Shown here one piece after another: positions 2,648-19,132 of a stretch of 64,000 nucleotides of DNA. The notes below the pieces were generated by a model that worked only from the letters and a program-made list of their open reading frames with translations, did no database searches and was not told the origin of the DNA. A program made the translations under genes and the position numbers. The number at the start of each line of letters is the position of its first letter. The first letter of the stretch is position 1. The stretch is from Acidobacteriota bacterium. Lineage in GTDB: Bacteria > Acidobacteriota > Vicinamibacteria > Vicinamibacterales > 2-12-FULL-66-21. The DNA lies in assembly GCA_003222675.1 (NCBI GenBank), contig QHWT01000040.1:241485-305484 (forward strand), written 5' to 3'.

Positions 2648-3570
2648 GCCGCGTCGTCTCCAACAGTGGAAATGAGGGGCAGCGGGTATGGAATTGGCGA
2701 GGCTCTGAGCTTGCGCCACGTCTCGAGTGTTGCGCGGGACACCGGGCGTCGCCTGGATGCGATCGCCTTTGAGGATCGCAGCAACTCGCGTCCGATCCAG
2801 ACCCATCCCCAGGGATCGCCGATCGCCCAGGCGCGCCGCATTCGGAAGTAGAGCGCGTAGCGCGCCGGCACTGTCCACATGACACGCGGAAACGGATCGT
2901 TGTAGAGCGCGTTCAGGCAATCGTTGCGGGCGGTGAAGCGCAGGTATCGCGTCCGGTTCCGGCTCGCCGCATCCGGCACGTGAGCAACGGCCGCATCCGG
3001 AAGGTAGACCGTCACGTACCCCGCGTCGAGAAGCCGCACACAGAAGTCTTTCTCCTCGCCGAAATACACAAAGTCCTCGCGATAGCCGCCAAGCGCAAGG
3101 AACACGTCGCGCCGCAGGAGATGCGCGAACCCGATGAAGCTCGCGACGATCGACGGCCTCGTCACCGGCGATGGCTGCATTCGCACCGGCCACGGCCGGC
3201 CGTCCGCTTCAGCCTGCGAGAAGGCGACCGCCGCGACCCGGCCGTCGCCGTTCAGCACGGCGAGCGCCTGCTCGATGCTTTCACGCGAAACGATCCGTGT
3301 GTCATCGTCGAGCAGCAGGACCGCCGGTGCGGCAGCTTCCCGCACCAGTCGATTGCGGCCGACGATGTAGCCCGGGCTGCGGTGGTCTCGCAATAGTCGC
3401 GGCGCGACGATGCCTTGCGAGATCCCGCCGATTGCCGGCGGATGGGATCCGTCGTCGAAGACGAGGATCTCCGGACACAGGCTCCGAATCGCGTCGAGCG
3501 AGCGCAGGCACGTGTCGAGCGACGCGGGTCGATCCCGTGTCGTGATGCCGACGGTCAACCTGGGCGTCAT
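2644..3570 (-). CDS. Glycosyltransferase family 2 (rhamnosyltransferase-like)
   Basis: A 308-aa GT-A enzyme. It opens with LTVGITTRDRPASLDTCLRS, has the nucleotide-binding VFDDGS (37-42) and the metal-binding DDD at 88-90 (LLLDDDTR). A catalytic-base region follows in GGYREDFVYFGEEKDFCVRL. This arrangement matches inverting GT2 enzymes such as rhamnosyltransferases and the WcaA family. A C-terminal amphipathic region (YALYFRMRRAWAIG) may sit on the membrane. It overlaps its upstream neighbour (ATGA, 3567-3570) and the downstream GT4 (GTGA), which places it inside the EPS operon. The sugar transferred cannot be read from sequence. Confidence 0.9.
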   Translation of the reverse strand: MTPRLTVGITTRDRPASLDTCLRSLDAIRSLCPEILVFDDGSHPPAIGGISQGIVAPRLLRDHRSPGYIVGRNRLVREAAAPAVLLLDDDTRIVSRESIEQALAVLNGDGRVAAVAFSQAEADGRPWPVRMQPSPVTRPSIVASFIGFAHLLRRDVFLALGGYREDFVYFGEEKDFCVRLLDAGYVTVYLPDAAVAHVPDAASRNRTRYLRFTARNDCLNALYNDPFPRVMWTVPARYALYFRMRRAWAIGDPWGWVWIGRELLRSSKAIASRRRPVSRATLETWRKLRASPIPYPLPLISTVGDDAA

Positions 3571-8902: not shown

Positions 8903-9823
8903 TCAGTTCCGTTGTCCGTATGCCTGGAGATTGAATGCCAGCGGAGACCGAGCGCCGCCCGGCAACGCGCGGGCGAGGCGAAATGCGGCGAGACGTGGCC
9001 GGCGGCTGCCGGATCCATCCGGCAGTTCAGGCGCGGCCGCCACGACCGTGACTTCCTGAAAGCCGGCGCGCTCGAGCGCGCAGGCGAGCGACGTCGCGGA
9101 AAAGTGACTCACGTGAACCAGATTGTCGGCGATGGTCGCGCGATACCCGCGGCTGAGACGCGCGCGGAGACTCTCCTTCAGGCGCTGCGCGGGCCCGTTG
9201 GGCACCTTGATCGCGAGCCAGCCGCCGCCGCACAGAAACGCGCGCACACGCGACAGCGCTTCGAGCGGACGGGGGACGTGTTCGAGCACGTCGGTCAGCG
9301 TGACCGCGTCGTAACAACGATCGGGGTTGAACGTGTGCACGTTGCCGTGGTGAACAACCGAGCCCGATGCGCGCGCGGCGAACGCGGCGGTCTTCGGATT
9401 GAGCTCGAGCCCTTCACCCTCCCATCCCGCTCGGCGCGCGAGCCGCAGGAAACGCCCGGCGTGCGCGCCGATATCGAGCAGCCTGCCACGGTGTGCCGAC
9501 CGCTGGCCGAGGCCACGGAGGATGTCGGTAAAAATCAGGTCCTTATAGCCAGCCTCGTGCTCGTGTGCGATCCAGTCGTCGGCCCAACGCTGGTCGTACA
9601 TGCGATCGAAGAAGCGCGGCAGCGCCGGCAGCGCCGCCGGCTGTGTGAAGTCGCACGCGGTGCAGCGCTGAATGATCACGCTGCTGCCGGAATACGCCGC
9701 GAGCTCGGGATCCTGACGAACGTATTCCGACAGATCGAACGTCGCCTCGTGCACACCAGAGAAGGACCGCCCGCCGCAGACCCAGCACGCATCGACAGCC
9801 ACAAACGGAGCGGTCGTCGTCAC
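8903..9823 (-). CDS. Class I SAM methyltransferase with N-terminal zinc ribbon
   Basis: A 306-aa protein from GTG 9823 (GTGA overlap with the upstream GT4). Two CxxC pairs (C13/C16 and C54/C57) form a zinc ribbon. The Methyltransf_11-like core has LLDIGAHAGRF (115-125), an acidic residue in GLELNP and the motif DAVTLTDVLEHVPRPLEAL. This domain order is found in methyltransferases acting on nucleotide-linked or lipid-linked sugars, and in sugar C-methyltransferase relatives. Here it probably methylates a glycan or sugar nucleotide in the exopolysaccharide pathway. The exact substrate cannot be determined. Confidence 0.88.
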   Translation of the reverse strand: MTTTAPFVAVDACWVCGGRSFSGVHEATFDLSEYVRQDPELAAYSGSSVIIQRCTACDFTQPAALPALPRFFDRMYDQRWADDWIAHEHEAGYKDLIFTDILRGLGQRSAHRGRLLDIGAHAGRFLRLARRAGWEGEGLELNPKTAAFAARASGSVVHHGNVHTFNPDRCYDAVTLTDVLEHVPRPLEALSRVRAFLCGGGWLAIKVPNGPAQRLKESLRARLSRGYRATIADNLVHVSHFSATSLACALERAGFQEVTVVAAAPELPDGSGSRRPRLAAFRLARALPGGARSPLAFNLQAYGQRN

Positions 9824-10953
9824 GCGCCCTCCACGATTCGGACGATCTCGCGCGCCATCTGATCCCAGGTGCGGGCCCGCAACGCCGCGCCCGCCCGCTC
9901 CGCACGCGCCTGCCAGCAGAGCGGATCGTCGTGCCACAGCCGAATCCGCGCCACGAGATCCTCGACGCAGACCGGATCAGGCAGCATCAGCGGACCGAAG
10001 TCGTCGGCAATCTTTTCCGCGACGCCCGCGCCGGCACTCACGATGACGGGGAGGGCGCGCGACAGGGCTTCGTGCACGCCGAGGCCATAGGCTTCATACC
10101 GCGCCGGGTGCACCAGCAGATCGCACGCCGCGAGCACACGCGGAATGTCGGTGCGAAAGCGCAAAAATCGGATTCGCTCCGAGAGACCCGCCTCGCGACT
10201 GCGGCGCTCCCAGATACCGGCTTCCGCTCCCGCGCCAGCGACGACGAGGTCCACGTTCCATCCGCTGATCGCGGACAACTCCCGCCAGGCGTCGAACAGC
10301 AGGTCGAAACCCTTTCGCCGATCGCTGAGCGCGCCGACGAACACCGCCGTTGATCGTGCGGGGTCGAGACCGAGCGCCCGGCGTGCCTCGGCGCGTTCGG
10401 CGCTCGCGACCGGACCGAACGTGTGCGCGTCGGTGCCGTAGTACACGACGCGCACGCGGTCCTCGGGAATGCCGTAGTGCCGCCGCACATCCGCCGCGGT
10501 GCGTTCGCTGTTGCAGATGACGGCGGGCGCGCGCATCAGCGCCTCCCGCTCGCGCGCGAGGAACAGGCGCCGGCCGGTGGCGGCGACGGCGCGCGCGCGC
10601 ACGCCCGCGGGCACGTGCGGAACGTGCGCCGCATGCAGGTAATGGATCCACGTCGGCGCCTGCCAGCGCGTGTTTCCCCCGTTCGAGAGCAGTCGCGCGT
10701 CGCGCCCGAGGCGTCCCGCAACGCTGGATGCGGCGCGTGAGAGAAGCGGCGCCCCGAGCAGATGAGATCCGAGCGGACGCGGTACCCCGTGGACGACAAC
10801 CCCCGGAGCAGCGGCAAGCGACGGCCACACGCGATGCGCGACGAGGTGCACTTCACGTCCGGCGCCGGCCAGATGCTCCGCCAGTGCATGGTTCGCGCGA
10901 TCCATGCCGCCGAGCGGCGTGAAGTCGCCGGCCGCCAGCACCCAGCGCGTCAT
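9820..10953 (-). CDS. Glycosyltransferase family 4
   Basis: A 377-aa protein. The frame is open upstream, but ATG 10953 is chosen because it overlaps the stop of the O-antigen-ligase-like gene (ATGA) and gives MTRWVLAAGDFTPLGGMDRA, a normal GT4 N-terminus. The donor half starts at TAVFVGALSDRRKGFDLL and contains PARYEAYGLGVHEALSRALP, with the E-x7-E motif. PAVICNSERTAADVRRHYGI is the usual hinge segment. It is a cytoplasmic glycosyltransferase in the same operon; linkage is unknown. Confidence 0.9.
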   Translation of the reverse strand: MTRWVLAAGDFTPLGGMDRANHALAEHLAGAGREVHLVAHRVWPSLAAAPGVVVHGVPRPLGSHLLGAPLLSRAASSVAGRLGRDARLLSNGGNTRWQAPTWIHYLHAAHVPHVPAGVRARAVAATGRRLFLAREREALMRAPAVICNSERTAADVRRHYGIPEDRVRVVYYGTDAHTFGPVASAERAEARRALGLDPARSTAVFVGALSDRRKGFDLLFDAWRELSAISGWNVDLVVAGAGAEAGIWERRSREAGLSERIRFLRFRTDIPRVLAACDLLVHPARYEAYGLGVHEALSRALPVIVSAGAGVAEKIADDFGPLMLPDPVCVEDLVARIRLWHDDPLCWQARAERAGAALRARTWDQMAREIVRIVEGA

Positions 10954-12350
10954 GCGTCCTGCACGCCGTCCCGGCACGCGACGCCGTGCAGGGCGCCCGC
11001 AAGAAACCAATACTGGATGCCGATTTGCGCGACGAACGGCGTGAAGCTGATGATCATGATGGCAGGCCCGAGCCCCGACGCGAGGACGACGGCGGCACAC
11101 GTGCCGAGCCGCGGATAGTGCGCCAGGCGTGCAAGATTGAACTGCGATCGCGCAGTCGTGATCAGCGCGCCCAGGTATAACCCGATCAGGAGGACGCCGC
11201 CGTCAATCATCCAGCCCGTGAACTGGATCTCCGCCCAGATCGGTGGAATGTTCGGATCGCTCGATCCGAAATACCCCGCGGCCATGCCCCATCGTCCGAG
11301 ACCGGCGCCGAACGGGTACTGATACAGGAGTTCCGCGAACGTGTATTTGAGCTGTGCGCCGCGCGCCTGCTGATACACCGCGAGCGGATCGTCAGCGAAG
11401 AGCGTCTTGAACCGTTCAGCGACGCTGGCGCCGCCCACGGTGAGCGCGAGTGAAAAGCTGATGATCAGCACGCCGACCGCGAGCAATCCGAACTTCGATG
11501 AGCGCGCCGACCGGCCCTGACGAAATAACACCATGCCGTACACCGCGAGCATCAGTACGGCGACGACCAGGCTGATACGCACCTGGCTCAGATAGATCGC
11601 CCCGAACCCGCAGCCCGCGAGCACGAGCGAGAGCGCGCGTTTCCAGAAAGGGATCGGGCTGACGGTGAAGATCAGCCCGAGTAACGCCGCGAACATAGCG
11701 GGCCCGGCGACCGCGCCCGGCGTATCGAACAATCCGGGCGGCCGCACGATCTGCTGTCCGTTTGCGCCGACGTAGGTGACGGCGCCGAGCCCGATCGTCG
11801 ATTGCGTGACGACGCGCGAGAACTCCTGGGGAAGCCATCGCGCAGGATCGTAGACCTGCAGCACGCCCACCACGGCGTTGGCACCGGAGCACAGCAGCAG
11901 GATCCAGAACAGCCGCGCCATCTGCTCTGGCGACTTGACGAAGTGCGGCGCCCAGAAGAGCGGCGCGATGACGGCAAGATAGACGCCGATCTGCGCCATC
12001 CCCGCCGTCAGCGTGACCGTCTGCGGATGAAGCAGCATCAGCCCGAGCAGCGACAGGACCGCGAGGACCCAGGGGTGCATCCGCGGCCGCGGCATCGATG
12101 GAGCGGCCAGTTGATACCAGGCAAACGCGATCAGGCTGATCGCGAATGCGCTGAAGCGGATCGGCAGTCGGAACGCCTGGCTGCCCGGCAGATACAACAG
12201 CGCGGGCAGCGCCGTCTGGCTGATGACAAAGATCTCGGCGAATCCCCACGGGATTCCTGCAGCGGCCACGGGCGCCGCCGTGGACACCGCGACAGGGCTA
12301 ACGCCCAGCGAGGTGGCCCAGGGCGCGGTCTCTGCAGGCCTGATAGACAT
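10950..12350 (-). CDS. O-antigen ligase / Wzy-like polysaccharide polymerase (multi-pass membrane protein)
   Basis: About 466 aa from ATG 12350; the start is uncertain. A GTG at 12287 would give a 445-aa form without the 53-bp overlap into the upstream GT gene, and neither has a good Shine-Dalgarno. At least ten hydrophobic segments are visible (for example WVLAVLSLLGLMLL, LFWILLLCSGANAVVGVL and LAVGVLIISFSLALTVGG). A long periplasmic loop holds YQYPFGAGLGRWGMAAGYFG, like the Wzy_C/WaaL family loop in which G-x-G-x-G and arginine residues matter. This is the only polymerase or ligase candidate in the locus, so it probably polymerises or ligates the lipid-linked repeat unit outside the inner membrane. 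Confidence 0.82.
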   Translation of the reverse strand: MSIRPAETAPWATSLGVSPVAVSTAAPVAAAGIPWGFAEIFVISQTALPALLYLPGSQAFRLPIRFSAFAISLIAFAWYQLAAPSMPRPRMHPWVLAVLSLLGLMLLHPQTVTLTAGMAQIGVYLAVIAPLFWAPHFVKSPEQMARLFWILLLCSGANAVVGVLQVYDPARWLPQEFSRVVTQSTIGLGAVTYVGANGQQIVRPPGLFDTPGAVAGPAMFAALLGLIFTVSPIPFWKRALSLVLAGCGFGAIYLSQVRISLVVAVLMLAVYGMVLFRQGRSARSSKFGLLAVGVLIISFSLALTVGGASVAERFKTLFADDPLAVYQQARGAQLKYTFAELLYQYPFGAGLGRWGMAAGYFGSSDPNIPPIWAEIQFTGWMIDGGVLLIGLYLGALITTARSQFNLARLAHYPRLGTCAAVVLASGLGPAIMIISFTPFVAQIGIQYWFLAGALHGVACRDGVQDA

Positions 12351-13530
12351 TGATGAAGGCACGAATAAACGCAGTTGGATCGAAACGCCGTCGTGCGGTT
12401 TCGCGCGCGGCGGCGCCAAGACGGCGACGGAGCGCGCCGTCGGTTGCGAGCGATGCGATGCAGCGGCTGAGGCCGCGCACGTCTCCAGGGCGATGCGTGA
12501 GCGCGTCGACACCGTCGGTGACGAGTTCCCCGGCGCCACCCGCGGCGCTCACGATTACGGCGCGTCCGGATGCCATCCCCTCGGCGATGACCAGTCCGAA
12601 TGGCTCCGGCTGCGTGCTCGCATGGACGATCACGTCGAGTGCGCGCATCGCGCCGGCGGCGTTATCGATGAACCCCGTCAGACCGACACGATCTGCCAGG
12701 CCGAGCGCGGCGATTCGCTCCTCGAAATCGGCGCGCGTGTGCTGACTGCCCGCGGTGTCGTACAGCGCGTCGCCGATGATGTAGGCCCGGACGGGCGCGT
12801 CATGCGGCAGCGCGCGCAGCGCCTGAAGAAACGTGTCATGCCCCTTCCAGCGCCCGAACGTCGCCACCAGGCCGACGCGAACCGTACCCGAAGGCGCGAG
12901 CGGCAGCGACGACAACCGATCGAGATCGACAGCGGGCCCGTCGGGCGTGAAGACGTTCGGATCGACGGCGTTGTGGATTGTCGTGACCGGCGCGGCGGGT
13001 TCGATCGCCGCAGTGACGTCCGCGGCGACGCTGCGCGAGTTCGCCACAATCGCGGCGCAGCGGGACACGTAACGGCGCAACAACGCACGGCTGATCGGCC
13101 GCGCGCCGACGTACTCGTGCAGGTGCCAGACGACCGGTGTTCCGCGCGGCGCCGCCCGTGCGCCCAGCACGTGGACTTTGAAGCCGTTCGTGTGGACGAC
13201 ATCGGGCCGAAGCTCCTCGAGAAGCTTTCTGAGACGGCGGGAGTAGAGTGCCACTCCGCCGGCCGCCAGCAGCATCGACGCGCCACGGTCCGCAATCGCC
13301 GCAGCGCCGGCGCCGACGTCTTCACCGAGACGGGCAAGCCGCTCGGGAAGCGGCAGCACGCGGACCGCGACACCCGCGTCCCTCGCGCGCACCGCCAATG
13401 CACCCTCACGCGGCACGATCAAATCGAGCGCCCAGCCCGGCTCGAGACGACCGAGTCCGCCGAGCAGCTCGAGAAGGCTGACTTCCGAGCCCCCCATCTC
13501 CGCAGAGACACTGAGGAAGCTGACGCGCAT
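12298..13530 (-). CDS. Glycosyltransferase family 4
   Basis: A 410-aa GT-B protein. The N-terminus MRVSFLSVSAEMGGSEVSLL carries the GGSE acceptor loop. PDVVHTNGFKVHVLG and PVVWHLHEYVG form the acceptor side. The donor half starts at VRVGLVATFGRWKGHDTFL and has STQPEPFGLVIAEGMASGRAV with the E-x7-E motif. The gene follows a 140-bp spacer that contains a paired REP-like hairpin, so it may begin a transcription subunit. Its 3' end overlaps the 5' end of the polymerase gene. Sugar specificity is unknown. Confidence 0.9.
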   Translation of the reverse strand: MRVSFLSVSAEMGGSEVSLLELLGGLGRLEPGWALDLIVPREGALAVRARDAGVAVRVLPLPERLARLGEDVGAGAAAIADRGASMLLAAGGVALYSRRLRKLLEELRPDVVHTNGFKVHVLGARAAPRGTPVVWHLHEYVGARPISRALLRRYVSRCAAIVANSRSVAADVTAAIEPAAPVTTIHNAVDPNVFTPDGPAVDLDRLSSLPLAPSGTVRVGLVATFGRWKGHDTFLQALRALPHDAPVRAYIIGDALYDTAGSQHTRADFEERIAALGLADRVGLTGFIDNAAGAMRALDVIVHASTQPEPFGLVIAEGMASGRAVIVSAAGGAGELVTDGVDALTHRPGDVRGLSRCIASLATDGALRRRLGAAARETARRRFDPTAFIRAFINVYQACRDRALGHLAGR

Positions 13531-13670: not shown

Positions 13671-14342
13671 TCAGTGAATCTCCCGGCGCGCGATCAACAC
13701 CACGTTGTCGGACAGGCGGCGCGGCGCGACGCGCGCGACGGCTGACGGGTAGTGCCACGCCGTCAAGGGCACGCGACCACGGTGTGTGTACGCGATTGTC
13801 TCGTCGCGCAGCCGGCAGTCGCGTGCGATCCGATGAAGATCGACTTCGAGGAGCGCCGTGCGATGCGCGGGATACGCGGAGTCCTGGAACGCGGAAAAGC
13901 GTCCTTTCACGACCAGCGTCAACAGGCTCAGCACGCTGAGCTGATTCGGCGTCGTGACGACAATCCATCCCCCCGGCCGGACGACCCGTACCAGCTCGCG
14001 GACGAGCGCGCGCGGATTGTCGAGATGCTCGATGACCTCAACCGCGGCGGCGACATCGATGCTGGCGTCCGCAATCGGCAGTGCCGTCGCGTCGAGATCG
14101 GCCACGCGAAGGTCGACGTCCGCCGGGAGGCCGTCGTAGCGCACCGCATCAACGCCGATGCAACGCGTGAAGGCGCGGCCGACCGCGCGCCACAGATCAC
14201 CGCTGCCGCATCCCACGTCGGCCAGCGTACCGGCAGCGCCGCGGTCGGCGAGGAGCCGTGCGACGGTCCCGTAGATCGCGTCATCGCTCCGTCCAAGGCT
14301 CTGGCGCGCACGCCGCTCGACATCGGTCGCGGCAGGTATCAT
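13671..14342 (-). CDS. Class I SAM-dependent methyltransferase
   Basis: A 223-aa protein from ATG 14342, chosen over a much longer open frame because it overlaps the TGA of the upstream GT4 (ATGA). The SAM site is TLADVGCGSGDLW (39-51), with the post-motif ASIDVAAAVEVIEHLDNP (93-110) and RVVRPGGWIVVTTPNQLS. This is the Methyltransf_11/23 pattern. The best inference is a small-molecule or glycan O- or C-methyltransferase in the exopolysaccharide cluster. The substrate is not identifiable. Confidence 0.88.
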   Translation of the reverse strand: MIPAATDVERRARQSLGRSDDAIYGTVARLLADRGAAGTLADVGCGSGDLWRAVGRAFTRCIGVDAVRYDGLPADVDLRVADLDATALPIADASIDVAAAVEVIEHLDNPRALVRELVRVVRPGGWIVVTTPNQLSVLSLLTLVVKGRFSAFQDSAYPAHRTALLEVDLHRIARDCRLRDETIAYTHRGRVPLTAWHYPSAVARVAPRRLSDNVVLIARREIH

Positions 14343-15478
14343 GCGACCGGAACGGGCGACACCTGCGCGCCGACGATCTCGCACATCTCCAGCAGCCGAA
14401 GCTCGGGGTCGGCGACGCGGCGCGCGCGTGACGGACCCGCCAATCCCAGCGTCAACCGCCCTGCCCTGTTGTCCATCAACTGCTGCAACGCCTCGGCGAG
14501 CGCAGCCTCCGACGCTTCGCGCAGCAACACGCCCGACTGCGCGTCGACAATCTCCATCGCGCCACCGGTCGCCGTGGTCACGACCGGTACTCCGGCGTAC
14601 AGCGCTTCGACAAACGCGATGCCGAACGGCTCCGGTGAGGTGTTCGGCTGGCAGTGAATGTCGGCCGCGGCGATCAGGCGGCGCACGTCCGGACGATCGC
14701 CGAGGAAGCGCACGCGCCCGCGCAACGCCGGGTCGGCGGCAAGCTGGTGCAGCTCTTCGAGGTAGTCCGCCTCGTGAGCGCGCTGAGGGGCGCCGGCAAT
14801 CCAGATCGCGAAGTCGCCGCGCAGCCTGACCGCCGCCCGCAGCAGCACGTGATGGCCCTTGTAACGTTCGAGCCGGCTCGCGAGGACGATCACCGTGGTG
14901 CGATCGCCGGCGCCGACAGCGCCGCGGACGCGGCGGCGTTCGTCGGCGTGCAGAGGTGGATTGGGCAGGACCGGGGGATAAATCACGTCGCGCGGGACCG
15001 CCGATATCCATCGCGACACGGCGTCTGCCGTGAAGCGGCTGTTACAGATGAACCGATCGGGTGGATAGCGCCGGACCTTTCGCTCCGGCCACGCGTCGGC
15101 CTGCGGGATGTCGTGCACCCACATCAGCAGCGGCCGGCGCGCGCGCCGGACGACCGGTGCGGCGAGAACGCAAGGCCAGGGCGCGTGACAGATGACGGCA
15201 CTGTAGCGCGCTGACGCGAGCATCCGCCGCAGCGCGCGTCGTGCGCGCCAGACCGTGTCGGGACGGCTGAATCGCACCGCGCCGAGCATGCCCGGATCGC
15301 CGCCCCGCTCGCGAAGCTCGCGTGCCACGCGGCCATCGAAGCACAGCGCGAAATCGTGCGCACACTCGTCGGGCCGCTGCGCCTCGGCAATGGCGAGCAG
15401 CATCCGCTCGATGCCGCCGAACAGATTGCCGGCGGCCACGTGGAGCACGCGCAGGCCGTGACGGGTGGGCTGCTTCAC
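14339..15478 (-). CDS. Glycosyltransferase family 4
   Basis: A 379-aa GT-B enzyme. RVLHVAAGNLFGGIERMLL (10-28) holds the GGIE acceptor loop, and PLLMWVHDIPQADAWP lies on the acceptor side. The donor half starts near VIVLASRLERYKGHHVLL and has NTSPEPFGIAFVEALYAGVPV with the E-x7-E motif. It overlaps the downstream methyltransferase by 4 bp. Upstream is a 133-bp spacer that contains a short fold-back repeat. Assigned to the EPS pathway by context; sugar unknown. Confidence 0.9.
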   Translation of the reverse strand: MKQPTRHGLRVLHVAAGNLFGGIERMLLAIAEAQRPDECAHDFALCFDGRVARELRERGGDPGMLGAVRFSRPDTVWRARRALRRMLASARYSAVICHAPWPCVLAAPVVRRARRPLLMWVHDIPQADAWPERKVRRYPPDRFICNSRFTADAVSRWISAVPRDVIYPPVLPNPPLHADERRRVRGAVGAGDRTTVIVLASRLERYKGHHVLLRAAVRLRGDFAIWIAGAPQRAHEADYLEELHQLAADPALRGRVRFLGDRPDVRRLIAAADIHCQPNTSPEPFGIAFVEALYAGVPVVTTATGGAMEIVDAQSGVLLREASEAALAEALQQLMDNRAGRLTLGLAGPSRARRVADPELRLLEMCEIVGAQVSPVPVA

Positions 15479-15611: not shown

Positions 15612-16424
15612 TTACAGGATCCGCTGCGGGACCTTGATGGTGTCGTTCGGCTGAACGAGATCGCTCATCTTGGCCTTGATCTTCAGGAGCTTGCCGTTCA
15701 CCGTGCGCTCGATCGTGATACGCCCCGTGGCCGCGCGTTCAGTCGCGCCACCGGCGAGCGCCAACGCGCGTTCGACTGTCAGGCGGTCTTCGTACACGAT
15801 CGGACCGGTCTGCCGCACGTACCCAAGCACGAAGATCGTTTCCGCCTTGGGCACGAAGATCGTGTCGCGATCCTGCAGCGTGATCGATTGCGCGCGGCCG
15901 GATTCGAGATCGCGTCGCGGCACGCGAATCTGCTGCGCCACCGGCTCGGCGCCGGGCGCCGCACCCGCCCGGGGGGACTCGTAGCGCGTGATCACCACGT
16001 AAGACCCGGCATCCGACGTCATGGATCCCGCCTGCGCCAGCACCGACATGATCGAGACGTTGCCCTCGAGCTTGAACTCGCCGGGCAAACGCACCATGCC
16101 CTGGACCGTCACCGTCTTACTGCGGTATTTCACGATCTCGATCGTGACGGAAGGGTTCACGAACAGTCCCTTCGAGAGACGCTGCTTGATTTCCTGTTCC
16201 AGCGCGCGGGTCGTCTGACCGGACGCCTTCACGCGGCCGATGTAAGGACAGTCGATCGTGCCGTCGTTGTCGACGGCGACGCCGGGGCGCGACGCGTCCG
16301 GTTCGCCGAACACCGTCACGTTGAGGACATCCTGGACACCGATGATGTAGTCGGCCTGAGCGGGAGCACCCGCGGCCGGCGCGCCTTGGGTCAGCAGCAA
16401 GAGAAGCGCAAACGTCGTGATCAC
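15612..16424 (-). CDS. Polysaccharide biosynthesis/export protein (Wza-like, Poly_export and SLBB domains)
   Basis: A 270-aa protein from GTG 16424, chosen for its GTGA overlap with the upstream barrel gene and because it starts a signal peptide (VITTFALLLLLTQGAPAAGA). The mature part has the Poly_export domain ADYIIGVQDVLNVTVFGEPD, with GTIDCPYIGRVKASG, then SLBB-type segments (VTVQGMVRLPGEF; IFVLGYVRQTGPIVY) and a final NDTIKVPQRIL. Wza-family proteins form the outer-membrane or periplasmic export channel for capsule or exopolysaccharide. No lipobox cysteine is visible, so it may rely on the neighbouring barrel for the outer membrane. A partner Wzc-type co-polymerase is absent from this window. 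Confidence 0.92.
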   Translation of the reverse strand: MITTFALLLLLTQGAPAAGAPAQADYIIGVQDVLNVTVFGEPDASRPGVAVDNDGTIDCPYIGRVKASGQTTRALEQEIKQRLSKGLFVNPSVTIEIVKYRSKTVTVQGMVRLPGEFKLEGNVSIMSVLAQAGSMTSDAGSYVVITRYESPRAGAAPGAEPVAQQIRVPRRDLESGRAQSITLQDRDTIFVPKAETIFVLGYVRQTGPIVYEDRLTVERALALAGGATERAATGRITIERTVNGKLLKIKAKMSDLVQPNDTIKVPQRIL

Positions 16425-17632
16425 GTGCTCCCCCACGTCAAGGACGCGAAGATCCTGCGGTTTCGATATTCGCGGTCCGGCGATCGAGCCGAGTTTCGCT
16501 CCACCCACTCCGCGTTGACGCCGAGCCGGGCGTGCTCGGAAAACCGATACCCAATCCCACCGCCGTAGGTCGTCGATGTGTCGGTGCCTGCGCCGCCGAC
16601 CTCGCCGCGATACTGCATGAGATTCCGCCCCACCGTACCGCGCACGTCGAACGGTCCGGCGACGATCGTCGTCCAGGTGACGCCGCCGCCGTTCGCCACG
16701 AAGTAGGGCGTTGACGGGTCGTAGGAGTACTGGACGTCGCGCAAGTATGTCGCCTGCACCTGGTGACGACCGTAGATCGTGGCGCCGATCGTGGCCGATG
16801 CGACAAAGCCGCTGTAGTCCGGCAGCGGATCGACGGCGTCGAAATGGCGGTATCCGAACGACGCCGTGCCCGTCAGCAAGCCGGTCGGACTGAACGTCAG
16901 CGTCGGCGACACCCGCCAGCTGTTCGAGTTGCGCGACGGCGACAGGTCGAACCGCTGCTGCTCGCGCTGAGCGACCACGCTGAACGTCGTGATCGGCGTC
17001 ACGTCGATCCCCAGCCCGCCTTCGATCCGCTCCATCCGGCCATTGAAGCTGTCCTGGAGGGAGATCCCGCGAAAGGTCGCGTCCGGCTGGTACTCAATCC
17101 TGCCGCGCCGCGCGTTCAGCAGCACATTGGTGCGCGATGCCACTCGGAGCGTCAATCCGGCGGTATAGCTCTGGTCGTGATGTCGCGCGCGCGCATCCAC
17201 TTCGGTATTGAGGCGGTTTCGCGTGTTCGCCCCTGCGAGCGACGCGTAGGGGCGCAGGCGCCCGAGATCGACGTCGACGCGAACCTCCGACGTGACGTTC
17301 GTGCCGCGTTCGCTCGCATACGTCTCGTAGTACACGTAATCGACCGCCGTGACATACGTCAGGCGGAGGCGGCGCGCACGAAATCCGACGCTCGTCCGCG
17401 GCGTCAGCGTAAGCGTGAAGTCCGATTTCGGGTCGACCGCTTCATTGAAGACGTTGTCGTCAACGCCGATGTCCTTGATGACCAGGCTGGGCGCGAGCGT
17501 CAGCGGTCCATAGACGATGGCGCCGGGCGGCAGTTGTTCCGGCTCTCCCTGCTGCGCCGAGACCACGGCGGGCGCGATCGCGAAGCTCAGAAGCACCAGC
17601 GCCATGCGCTGGCGCCAGACACGGCGCGTCAT
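16421..17632 (-). CDS. Outer-membrane beta-barrel protein of the exopolysaccharide locus
   Basis: A 403-aa protein from ATG 17632 (ATGA overlap with the regulator gene). The signal peptide MTRRVWRQRMALVLLSFAIA ends near VVSAQQ. The mature chain is a series of alternating-hydrophobicity strands with paired aromatic residues (RLRLTYVTAVDYVYYETYAS, GTASFGYRHFDAV, YGGGIGYRFSEHARLGV) and ends RIFASLTWGST, a plausible barrel end although not the canonical terminal Phe. It resembles the outer-membrane barrel proteins found beside Wza-like proteins in exosortase/EPS loci (BBP2-like). A role as the outer-membrane secretion pore or a scaffold is inferred from position. Confidence 0.82.
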   Translation of the reverse strand: MTRRVWRQRMALVLLSFAIAPAVVSAQQGEPEQLPPGAIVYGPLTLAPSLVIKDIGVDDNVFNEAVDPKSDFTLTLTPRTSVGFRARRLRLTYVTAVDYVYYETYASERGTNVTSEVRVDVDLGRLRPYASLAGANTRNRLNTEVDARARHHDQSYTAGLTLRVASRTNVLLNARRGRIEYQPDATFRGISLQDSFNGRMERIEGGLGIDVTPITTFSVVAQREQQRFDLSPSRNSNSWRVSPTLTFSPTGLLTGTASFGYRHFDAVDPLPDYSGFVASATIGATIYGRHQVQATYLRDVQYSYDPSTPYFVANGGGVTWTTIVAGPFDVRGTVGRNLMQYRGEVGGAGTDTSTTYGGGIGYRFSEHARLGVNAEWVERNSARSPDREYRNRRIFASLTWGST

Positions 17633-18651
17633 GACGCGACGGGCGCCCCGGCCCGCCGAGTGATCCCCAGTTGCCGCGTCTTGCGATAGAGATTCGCGCG
17701 CTCGATCCCCAGCGTCCGGGCCGCATCGCTCATGCGCCAGCGGTGGCGCTCGAGCACCGATGCGATGTATTCGCGCTCGAACTGGCGCCTCGCCTCGCGC
17801 AGGCTGACGTCGGGCGCGATCCGCGAGAACGCGCCGTCGATCGGCAGCTGCGCGAGCACGTCTTCCTGCCGCACGGCGCCGCTCGGGACGGCCCGCAACA
17901 CCTTGTCGAGCACGCGGCGCAGCTCGTCGAGATTGCCGGTCCACCGCGGCGCAGCCAGGACCGTCAACGCCGCCTGGGTGAACGTCGGGCCTTGACCGCC
18001 AGTCAGCTCCGAGGTGACGCGCGCGGCGAGCTCCGGAATATCCTCGGCGCGATCGCGCAGCCCTGCGATCGCAATCGAGACCTGCGACAGCCTGCGAAAA
18101 AGATCGGAGCGGAAGTGTCCTTCGCGAACCTCTGCGCTGATCGAGGCGGGCGCGTGCGCGATCACCCGGCTGCGAATCGCCACGCGTCGTCGGCCGGCAG
18201 CGACCTCACGATCGCGTACGATGCGCGCGAGCCGGCGTTGCGCGGCCGCCGGCAGTTCAACGATGTTTTTGAGGTACAGCGTGCCGCTTCGCGCGCGCAG
18301 CATCGCGGAAGAGGCCGCCACGTGATCCACGTCGACCTGCGCACCGCCGCGTGGGGCGGCGCCGAACAGGTCGAGTTCGAGTGCGGCCGCATCGGTCGCG
18401 CCGCAGTCGAGCACGACGAATGGGGTGCCCGGCCGGGTGCGTTCGTGAATCGCGCGGGCGACGGCATCGGGGTCGAGTCCGGCGTCCGCCGCAATGAGCA
18501 CGGGTGCGGCGATCTGGAGCGCCTCGGCGAACGCCGCGCGCGCGCGTTCGGCTGCCGCCGACGGACCTGCGAGGGGCAGCGGCCAGTCGGCAGCCGGACC
18601 CGTCCGCGGCGATTCCGCCGGCAGCGGGTTACGAGTGAGGGGGGGGCGCAT
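17629..18651 (-). CDS. Sigma-54-activator-like regulator with degenerate AAA+ domain and Fis-type HTH
   Basis: A 340-aa protein. It follows the bEBP fold closely: LDCGATDAAALELDLFG (81-97), FRSDLFRRLSQVSIAIAGLRDRAEDIPELA (180-209), then a FIS-type HTH (LREARRQFEREYIASVLERHRWRMSDAARTLGIERANLYRKTRQLGI, 284-330; quoted here only to locate it). Yet the Walker A position reads AADAGLDP (54-61), the GAFTGA loop is replaced by AAPRGGA (98-104), Walker B is TLYLKNI (124-130) with no Asp-Glu, and the sensor-II arginine of GNxREL is Asp (GNLDEL). It should not hydrolyse ATP or contact sigma-54. It probably regulates EPS genes as a plain DNA-binding protein. Confidence 0.85.
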   Translation of the reverse strand: MRPPLTRNPLPAESPRTGPAADWPLPLAGPSAAAERARAAFAEALQIAAPVLIAADAGLDPDAVARAIHERTRPGTPFVVLDCGATDAAALELDLFGAAPRGGAQVDVDHVAASSAMLRARSGTLYLKNIVELPAAAQRRLARIVRDREVAAGRRRVAIRSRVIAHAPASISAEVREGHFRSDLFRRLSQVSIAIAGLRDRAEDIPELAARVTSELTGGQGPTFTQAALTVLAAPRWTGNLDELRRVLDKVLRAVPSGAVRQEDVLAQLPIDGAFSRIAPDVSLREARRQFEREYIASVLERHRWRMSDAARTLGIERANLYRKTRQLGITRRAGAPVAS

Positions 18652-18664
18652 GATATTTGAGGAG

Positions 18665-18944
18665 GTTCCCCGGTTCCACGAGTTCCCAGGTTCCCGGGTT
18701 CTGGTTCCAGAGGTTCCCCGGTTCTCAGTTCTCAGTTCTCAGTTCTCGGTTCTCGGTTCTCGGTTCTTGGTTCTTGGTTCTCGGTTCGCGGTTCGCGGTT
18801 CGCAGTGCTCGGTCTCGGTGCTCAGTCGGTGCTCTTTGCTGCGCAAACCTAGAACCTAGAACCTAGATCCTCTAGAACCCAGAACCATTAGAACCAGGGA
18901 ACAAGAACTCCGGAACCCTGGAACCCTGGAACAAGGAACCCTCT
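18665..18944 (+). repeat. Heptamer fold-back repeat (GGTTCTC)n ... (GAACCTA)n
   Basis: The left part holds more than fifteen imperfect copies of a 7-mer around GGTTCTC (variants GGTTCCC, AGTTCTC, GGTTCTT, GGTTCGC). A short centre (about 18807-18842) follows. The right part then repeats the complement, GAACCTA, GAACCCA, GAACCAT, GGAACCC. The two arms can pair in many registers into a long cruciform or RNA stem. There is no spacer/repeat alternation as in CRISPR. Confidence 0.85.
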
Positions 18945-19038
18945 TAAGGTTGTCGAGCCGCAGCTTCGCCCCGTCGGTCACAGGCCCGGTACTGGCCGAG
19001 GGACTCCGTCCTGGGGTTTTACGGATGAATCAGGTCGA

Positions 19039-19067
19039 ATTGTCGCGCTAATAACTGATTGTGTCAA
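19039..19067 (-). promoter_or_regulatory. Sigma70-type promoter of the EPS regulator operon
   Basis: Read on the minus strand, TTGACA (19067-19062) is followed by a 17-nt spacer and GACAAT (19044-19039). The -35 is perfect and the -10 matches TATAAT at 4 of 6 positions. It lies 66 bp past the stop of the upstream glycosyltransferase gene and points towards the regulator gene at 18651, giving a leader of about 380 nt. Confidence 0.75.
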
Positions 19068-19132
19068 CTGCGACACGCGGAGTGCATCAAAAGAGACACA
19101 TCCGGCGGCTGCCGACTGCTGACGTTGGCGCG

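Follow-up and report, generated by a model that had tools for sequence, protein, structure and literature searches.

What can a protein related to sigma-54 activators do once its ATPase motifs have been replaced? This question is raised by a 340-aa bEBP-like regulator encoded in the window, i.e., the whole stretch of 64,000 nucleotides of an Acidobacteriota genome analysed here. Its gene heads an EPS export operon, with a stop codon overlapping the next start (Table 1); methyltransferase genes are also present among the same-strand genes downstream.

Table 1. Features of the regulator locus and of HTH-only relatives (positions are those of the window unless a locus is named)
Feature	Position	Strand	Basis or remark
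bEBP-like pseudo-ATPase regulator, 340 aa	17629..18651	-	ORF, Pfam, AlphaFold2 model, motif alignment
Degenerate AAA+ core of the regulator	residues ~27-198
Lid of the regulator	residues 199-275
Fis-type HTH of the regulator	residues 283-332
Leader element B (TGTGACCGACGGGGCGAAGC), putative ops/JUMPstart-like, 5'UTR	18963..18982	-
Sigma70-type promoter, TTGACA-N17-GACAAT	19039..19067	-	10 of 12 consensus match
Predicted operator 1, inverted repeat GTGTC-N6-GACAC overlapping -35	19061..19076	-	conserved in 20/22 short-type loci
Predicted operator 2, degenerate, GTGTC half-site	19084..19099	-	23 bp upstream of operator 1 (~two helical turns)
Outer-membrane beta-barrel (PF10082), 403 aa	16421..17632	-	ATG overlaps regulator TGA (ATGA)
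Polysaccharide export protein, Wza-like (PF02563 + SLBB)	15612..16508	-
Glycosyltransferase, GT4-type	14339..15478	-
Glycosyltransferase, GT4-type	12298..13530	-
Probable Wzy/O-antigen-ligase-type protein	10950..12539	-	weak match
Glycosyltransferase	9820..11100	-
HTH-only protein, ~82 aa	L274:8090-8341	-	regulator's operon position, same operator
HTH-only protein, ~82 aa	L327:about 3080-3325	+	regulator's operon position, same operator

Motifs, fold and family of the regulator

According to the sequence-only reading of this DNA, the protein aligns along its full length with sigma-54 activators, its fold and Fis HTH are intact, and every ATPase motif is lost. The alignment and the intact HTH were both borne out, and the fold is predicted to be intact. 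Three Pfam domains were found above their cut-offs, namely PF00158 (Sigma54_activat, 81.6 bits), AAA_lid_14 (PF25601, 32.5 bits) and HTH_8 (PF02954, 48.2 bits); a receiver domain is absent. The AlphaFold2 model, computed from the family alignment, had a mean pLDDT of 88.5 and a predicted AAA+ fold. This fold is considered to be kept, because the best PDB matches of the model in Foldseek (E 2.6e-21) were NtrX, ZraR (1ojl) and FleQ, with VpsR also among the matches.

The loss of every ATPase motif was only partly upheld. The features of a canonical bEBP that are missing from the regulator are the GAFTGA loop, Walker A and B, sensors I and II and the switch Asn. Compared with a reference set of 26 canonical bEBPs, the Walker A Lys (26 out of 26) is replaced by P61, the Walker B Asp and Glu (each 26 out of 26) by K128 and N129, the Phe of GAFTGA (25 out of 26) by V, and the sensor-II Arg (26 out of 26) by D242, while D82 and A167 stand in place of the switch Asn and the sensor-I Thr. 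What the regulator retains, besides the fold and the homology to the Sigma54_activat, lid and HTH domains, is the pair of arginine fingers R181 and R187 (FRSDLFRRL), which could have a remaining role at a subunit interface or with a ligand.

When 162 genomes from the source order were searched with a profile, family members were found in about 10 families. Two forms were observed: a short form of ~340 aa, as in the window, and a long form of ~470 aa with a receiver-like domain. None of the 17 other short members and 12 long members checked had a working ATPase motif set. The GAFTGA Phe was found in none of the 18 short and 12 long members, the Walker A Lys in 0 and 1, the Walker B Asp in 3 and 0, and the Walker B Glu in 2 and 0, respectively. 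Among the arginine fingers, R187 was present in all 30 members and R181 in 27. Moreover, the degenerate family exhibited new invariant residues (R140, A142 and R146), which argues for new constraint and not for decay. Among the loci fetched from outside the order, the best matches were canonical, with GxxGxGKE, a GAFTGA-type loop and LDE. In the receiver-like domain of the long form, the acidic pair and the Lys were lost in 14 cases out of 14, and the phospho-acceptor Asp was kept in 12 out of 14. Long members with such a pseudo-receiver occur at L100, L104, L106, L107, L109-L111, L113, L116, L118 and L121-L123.

In the phylogenetic tree, the degenerate family formed one clade apart from canonical bEBPs (SH-aLRT 100, with long-branch attraction as a caveat), the nearest proteins with intact motifs belonging to a separate clade; 16 of the 18 short forms grouped in a single clade inside the degenerate family. 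The window regulator is 72% identical to its same-genus orthologue, and dN/dS between the two is 0.19 for the whole protein, falling to 0.17 for the AAA+ core and 0.065 for the HTH. The range of the neighbouring EPS genes (0.10-0.27) encloses the overall value. Another orthologue, L120 (G012:C101), is split in two frames, through either a MAG sequencing error or recent decay.

The dN/dS value, the single clade and the recurrence of the same motif losses in relatives agree with an exapted pseudo-ATPase, not a decayed gene, as the sequence-only reading had it. Its further proposal, a regulator of EPS synthesis, is made plausible by synteny, since 35 of the degenerate loci fetched extended far enough downstream and 32 of these have a Poly_export (Wza-like) gene just behind the regulator, and by a conserved predicted operator (see below). 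As judged by sequence comparison, the 340-aa regulator probably belongs to a family that descends from NtrC/NtrX-type enhancer-binding proteins and is conserved although catalytically dead.

Promoter, predicted operator and leader element

The promoter, already read from the sequence as sigma70-like and not sigma-54, lies ~390 bp before the regulator ATG, with a low-complexity insert in between. No -24/-12 sigma-54 site was found, allowing up to 2 mismatches, in 18652-19132, from the regulator to the upstream gene. The insert (18665-18941), ~280 bp long, separates the leader element from the start codon; it is made up of degenerate repeats of 7 nt and related ones, of the GGTTCT/GAACC type, and is missing from the same-genus orthologue (L084).

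The motif GTRTC-N6-GAYAC was observed upstream of the regulator in 20 out of the 22 short-type loci, versus a mean of 0.02 loci for shuffled sequences, and overlapped the TTGACA -35 hexamer in nearly all of these 20 loci. It was also present over the -35 in both HTH-only loci, and was found neither in 13 upstream regions of long-type (receiver-bearing) loci nor in the 19 element-B upstream regions of sister operons devoid of the regulator; these co-occurrence figures are raw counts that ignore shared ancestry among loci. A second GTRTC half-site, 21-23 bp upstream, was found in 19 of the 20 AAA+-bearing loci and in neither of the two HTH-only loci. The first two T of TTGACA were conserved outside the arms of the repeat. 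Overall, these sequences limit the predicted operator to the short and HTH-only forms, the upstream arrangement of the long members being different. The 7.16 Mb genome contains a single further exact copy of the operator, which sits within an ORF, and a regulon extending past the regulator's own promoter was rejected for this reason. In short-type loci of family f2 (e.g., L088, L090, L102 and L108), the -10 region is spanned by AGTC copies spaced ~11 bp apart (AGTCATATTAAGTCG), which may be further half-sites.

A 20-nt leader element, TGTRASYSASRGGGCGRAGC, precedes EPS export operons throughout the order, many of which adjoin a gene for an RfaH/UpxY-type NusG paralogue. The window copy of this element B is unique in its genome, even with 2 mismatches. 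Its consensus was found in 79 of the 162 genomes, with hits far exceeding those of the reversed control, and often ahead of a lipoprotein/barrel/Wza operon, including where the regulator is absent; sister loci are L105, L109, L111, L113, L114, L121, L122, L272, L273, L332 and L334. The NusG paralogue encoded upstream in many element-B loci shares 62-82% identity with the second NusG encoded in the window genome; its co-occurrence with element B was taken as observed, irrespective of phylogeny.

The core of element B, GGGGCGRAGC, shows a partial likeness to the ops/JUMPstart element of RfaH, for which an ops-like sequence, GGCGGTAGAG, has been quoted (PMC2871177) and the role of ops described (PMC7819879). 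Because of this likeness, element B may reasonably be read as a putative antitermination site. As in the RfaH/UpxY and ops/JUMPstart systems, a short conserved leader element precedes long polysaccharide operons and a NusG paralogue is encoded near many of them; however, element B is only partly ops-like by sequence, and its pairing with NusG is one that we infer. A leader peptide or hairpin was rejected, as no consistent frame or pairing was seen by eye, and an Rfam search with the leader element returned nothing above chance. The gene that separates element B from the barrel gene or the long-type regulator is not the NusG paralogue, which lies further upstream; it encodes a conserved lipoprotein with EF-hand-like D-x-D-G-D-G-x-x-D repeats (L113:8358-9004, + strand, and homologues).

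HTH-only relatives and a proposed mode of action

In two genomes, G106 and G075, the position usually held by the regulator, with the lipoprotein gene on one side and the beta-barrel gene on the other, is occupied by HTH-only proteins. The G106 HTH, which matched PF02954 with 45 bits, is 64% identical to the window HTH over the matched stretch. The count covers these two well-supported genomes; cases in G040 and G041, near contig ends or truncated, were left out, and an additional candidate in G020 was rejected as a fragment of a canonical bEBP. These forms have the exact operator without the upstream half-site, which is the strongest argument, drawn from two cases, that DNA binding is the conserved function. 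DNA binding, and not ATP use, thus appears to be the regulator's job, and the dead AAA+ domain, where it is kept, may help dimers to gather on tandem sites.

The computations show the loss of motifs, the conservation of the family, the purifying selection, the synteny, and the operator with its co-occurrence with the regulator's HTH; we infer binding itself, oligomerisation, the sign of regulation and the input signal. The explanation that we consider probable is that this member of a conserved dead bEBP-derived family is an ordinary DNA-binding, autogenous regulator of an EPS operon at a sigma70 promoter, and not an ATP-driven sigma-54 remodeller. Dimers of the Fis-type HTH would bind GTRTC-N6-GAYAC centred near -36.5, over the -35 hexamer, as well as a weaker copy of the operator ~22 bp upstream, ahead of the regulator's own gene. 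Since this gene comes first in the operon, the regulator would set transcription of the EPS export operon autogenously. The AAA+ fold and lid would survive, at most, as an assembly scaffold joining two dimers on the tandem sites. By covering the -35, the regulator may repress, which would result in negative autoregulation. Repression is slightly favoured over activation, because the -35 is a perfect hexamer, lies under the site and has its TT conserved beyond the arms of the repeat. A c-di-GMP-like ligand is a possible input.

Activation in the manner of VpsR, in which the same protein would bind a small ligand (e.g., c-di-GMP) or sense its own level and recruit sigma70 RNAP from tandem sites at -58.5 and -36.5, has several points in its favour: VpsR controls polysaccharide genes at sigma70 promoters without a GAFTGA motif (PMC10274813, PMC3162934, PMC12564702), it is among both the sequence and the fold matches of the window regulator, and an upstream tandem site is present. 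We nevertheless regard it as unlikely, since a perfect TTGACA with its first two T conserved outside the arms should need no activator, the predicted operator covers the -35 itself, and the HTH-only forms retain just the -35 site. The conserved R181, R187 and lid, together with RpoN and the many canonical bEBPs of the host genome, which has ~35 strong PF00158 matches elsewhere, would also suit a dominant-negative or tuning subunit that enters mixed hexamers formed with one of these canonical bEBPs, via its arginine fingers and lid. Such a role, which we hold to be improbable, leaves the sigma70 promoter and operator of the regulator's own gene and the HTH-only forms unexplained, and the intergenic region has no sigma-54 promoter.

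A decaying pseudogene, its frame open by chance, is scarcely credible. Many catalytic residues are indeed lost and one orthologue (that of G012) is broken, but the dN/dS values, overall and in the HTH, the invariant derived residues, and the conservation of the protein over about 10 families and of its operator all stand against it, and it was rejected on dN/dS and conservation.

This order-wide family may record how an ATP-driven sigma-54 activator was turned, step by step, into a protein that binds DNA passively at sigma70 promoters, from pseudo-receiver plus pseudo-AAA+, through AAA+ without a receiver, to the HTH only. Operators would have changed in step, with tandem sites accompanying the dead AAA+ and a single site in its absence, and the dead motor would have been kept purely as a DNA-assembly scaffold. 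We advance this scenario tentatively, as falling a little short of probable.

Comparison with known regulators

GAFTGA-less bEBPs acting with sigma70 have been documented, namely VpsR, TyrR, DhaR, HupR and the NtrC proteins of Rhodobacter capsulatus and Caulobacter (PMC10274813, PMC3162934). The window regulator combines the absence of GAFTGA with a sigma70-type target promoter, the latter predicted from its sequence. With sigma-54 contact lost and a switch to sigma70, its family appears to work like these regulators but to go further: R. capsulatus NtrC remains dependent on ATP binding (PMC10274813), whereas the nucleotide-binding motifs of the window family are gone too, and this family appears to have shed domains step by step.

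VpsR, a biofilm regulator of Vibrio cholerae, is an activator that shares with the window protein a bEBP fold without GAFTGA, sigma70 promoters and polysaccharide genes (PMC10274813, PMC3162934). It differs by an N-terminal receiver-like domain with a phosphorylation-site Asp (PMC10274813) and by its binding of c-di-GMP (PMC12564702). In the window protein, in contrast, an N-terminal domain is missing, as are Walker A/B and the sensors, and its gene is the first of the operon that it apparently controls.

NtrX (Brucella, 5m7n) was the best match of the window protein in NCBIfam, PDB and Foldseek, and both have the 'LREAR..FEREYI' linker to the HTH. However, the NtrX equivalog model (NF051870) gave 155 bits, far under its cut-off of 600, with a match starting past the receiver, which the window protein lacks; moreover, there are NtrX structures with ATP and with ADP, whereas the window protein has no Walker A left. 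The HTH-only relatives resemble Fis-type small DNA-binders in size and HTH, but sit in an EPS operon behind the family's own operator. Fis itself may descend from an NtrC-type HTH. No description of the dead-ATPase family was found in our literature search of open-licence papers.

Overall, bEBPs without sigma-54 contact were previously known singly; here, a whole lineage has had its nucleotide machinery erased as well, with the scaffold conserved. The HTH-alone end point is still visible on the same operator, which would make it possible to ask directly which role, other than ATP hydrolysis, the AAA+ domain plays. At dozens of acidobacterial EPS loci, labelling the regulator a 'sigma-54-dependent activator' would be a misannotation. 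The locus also offers a ready operator and promoter with which to test how EPS is controlled in a soil phylum that has received little study.
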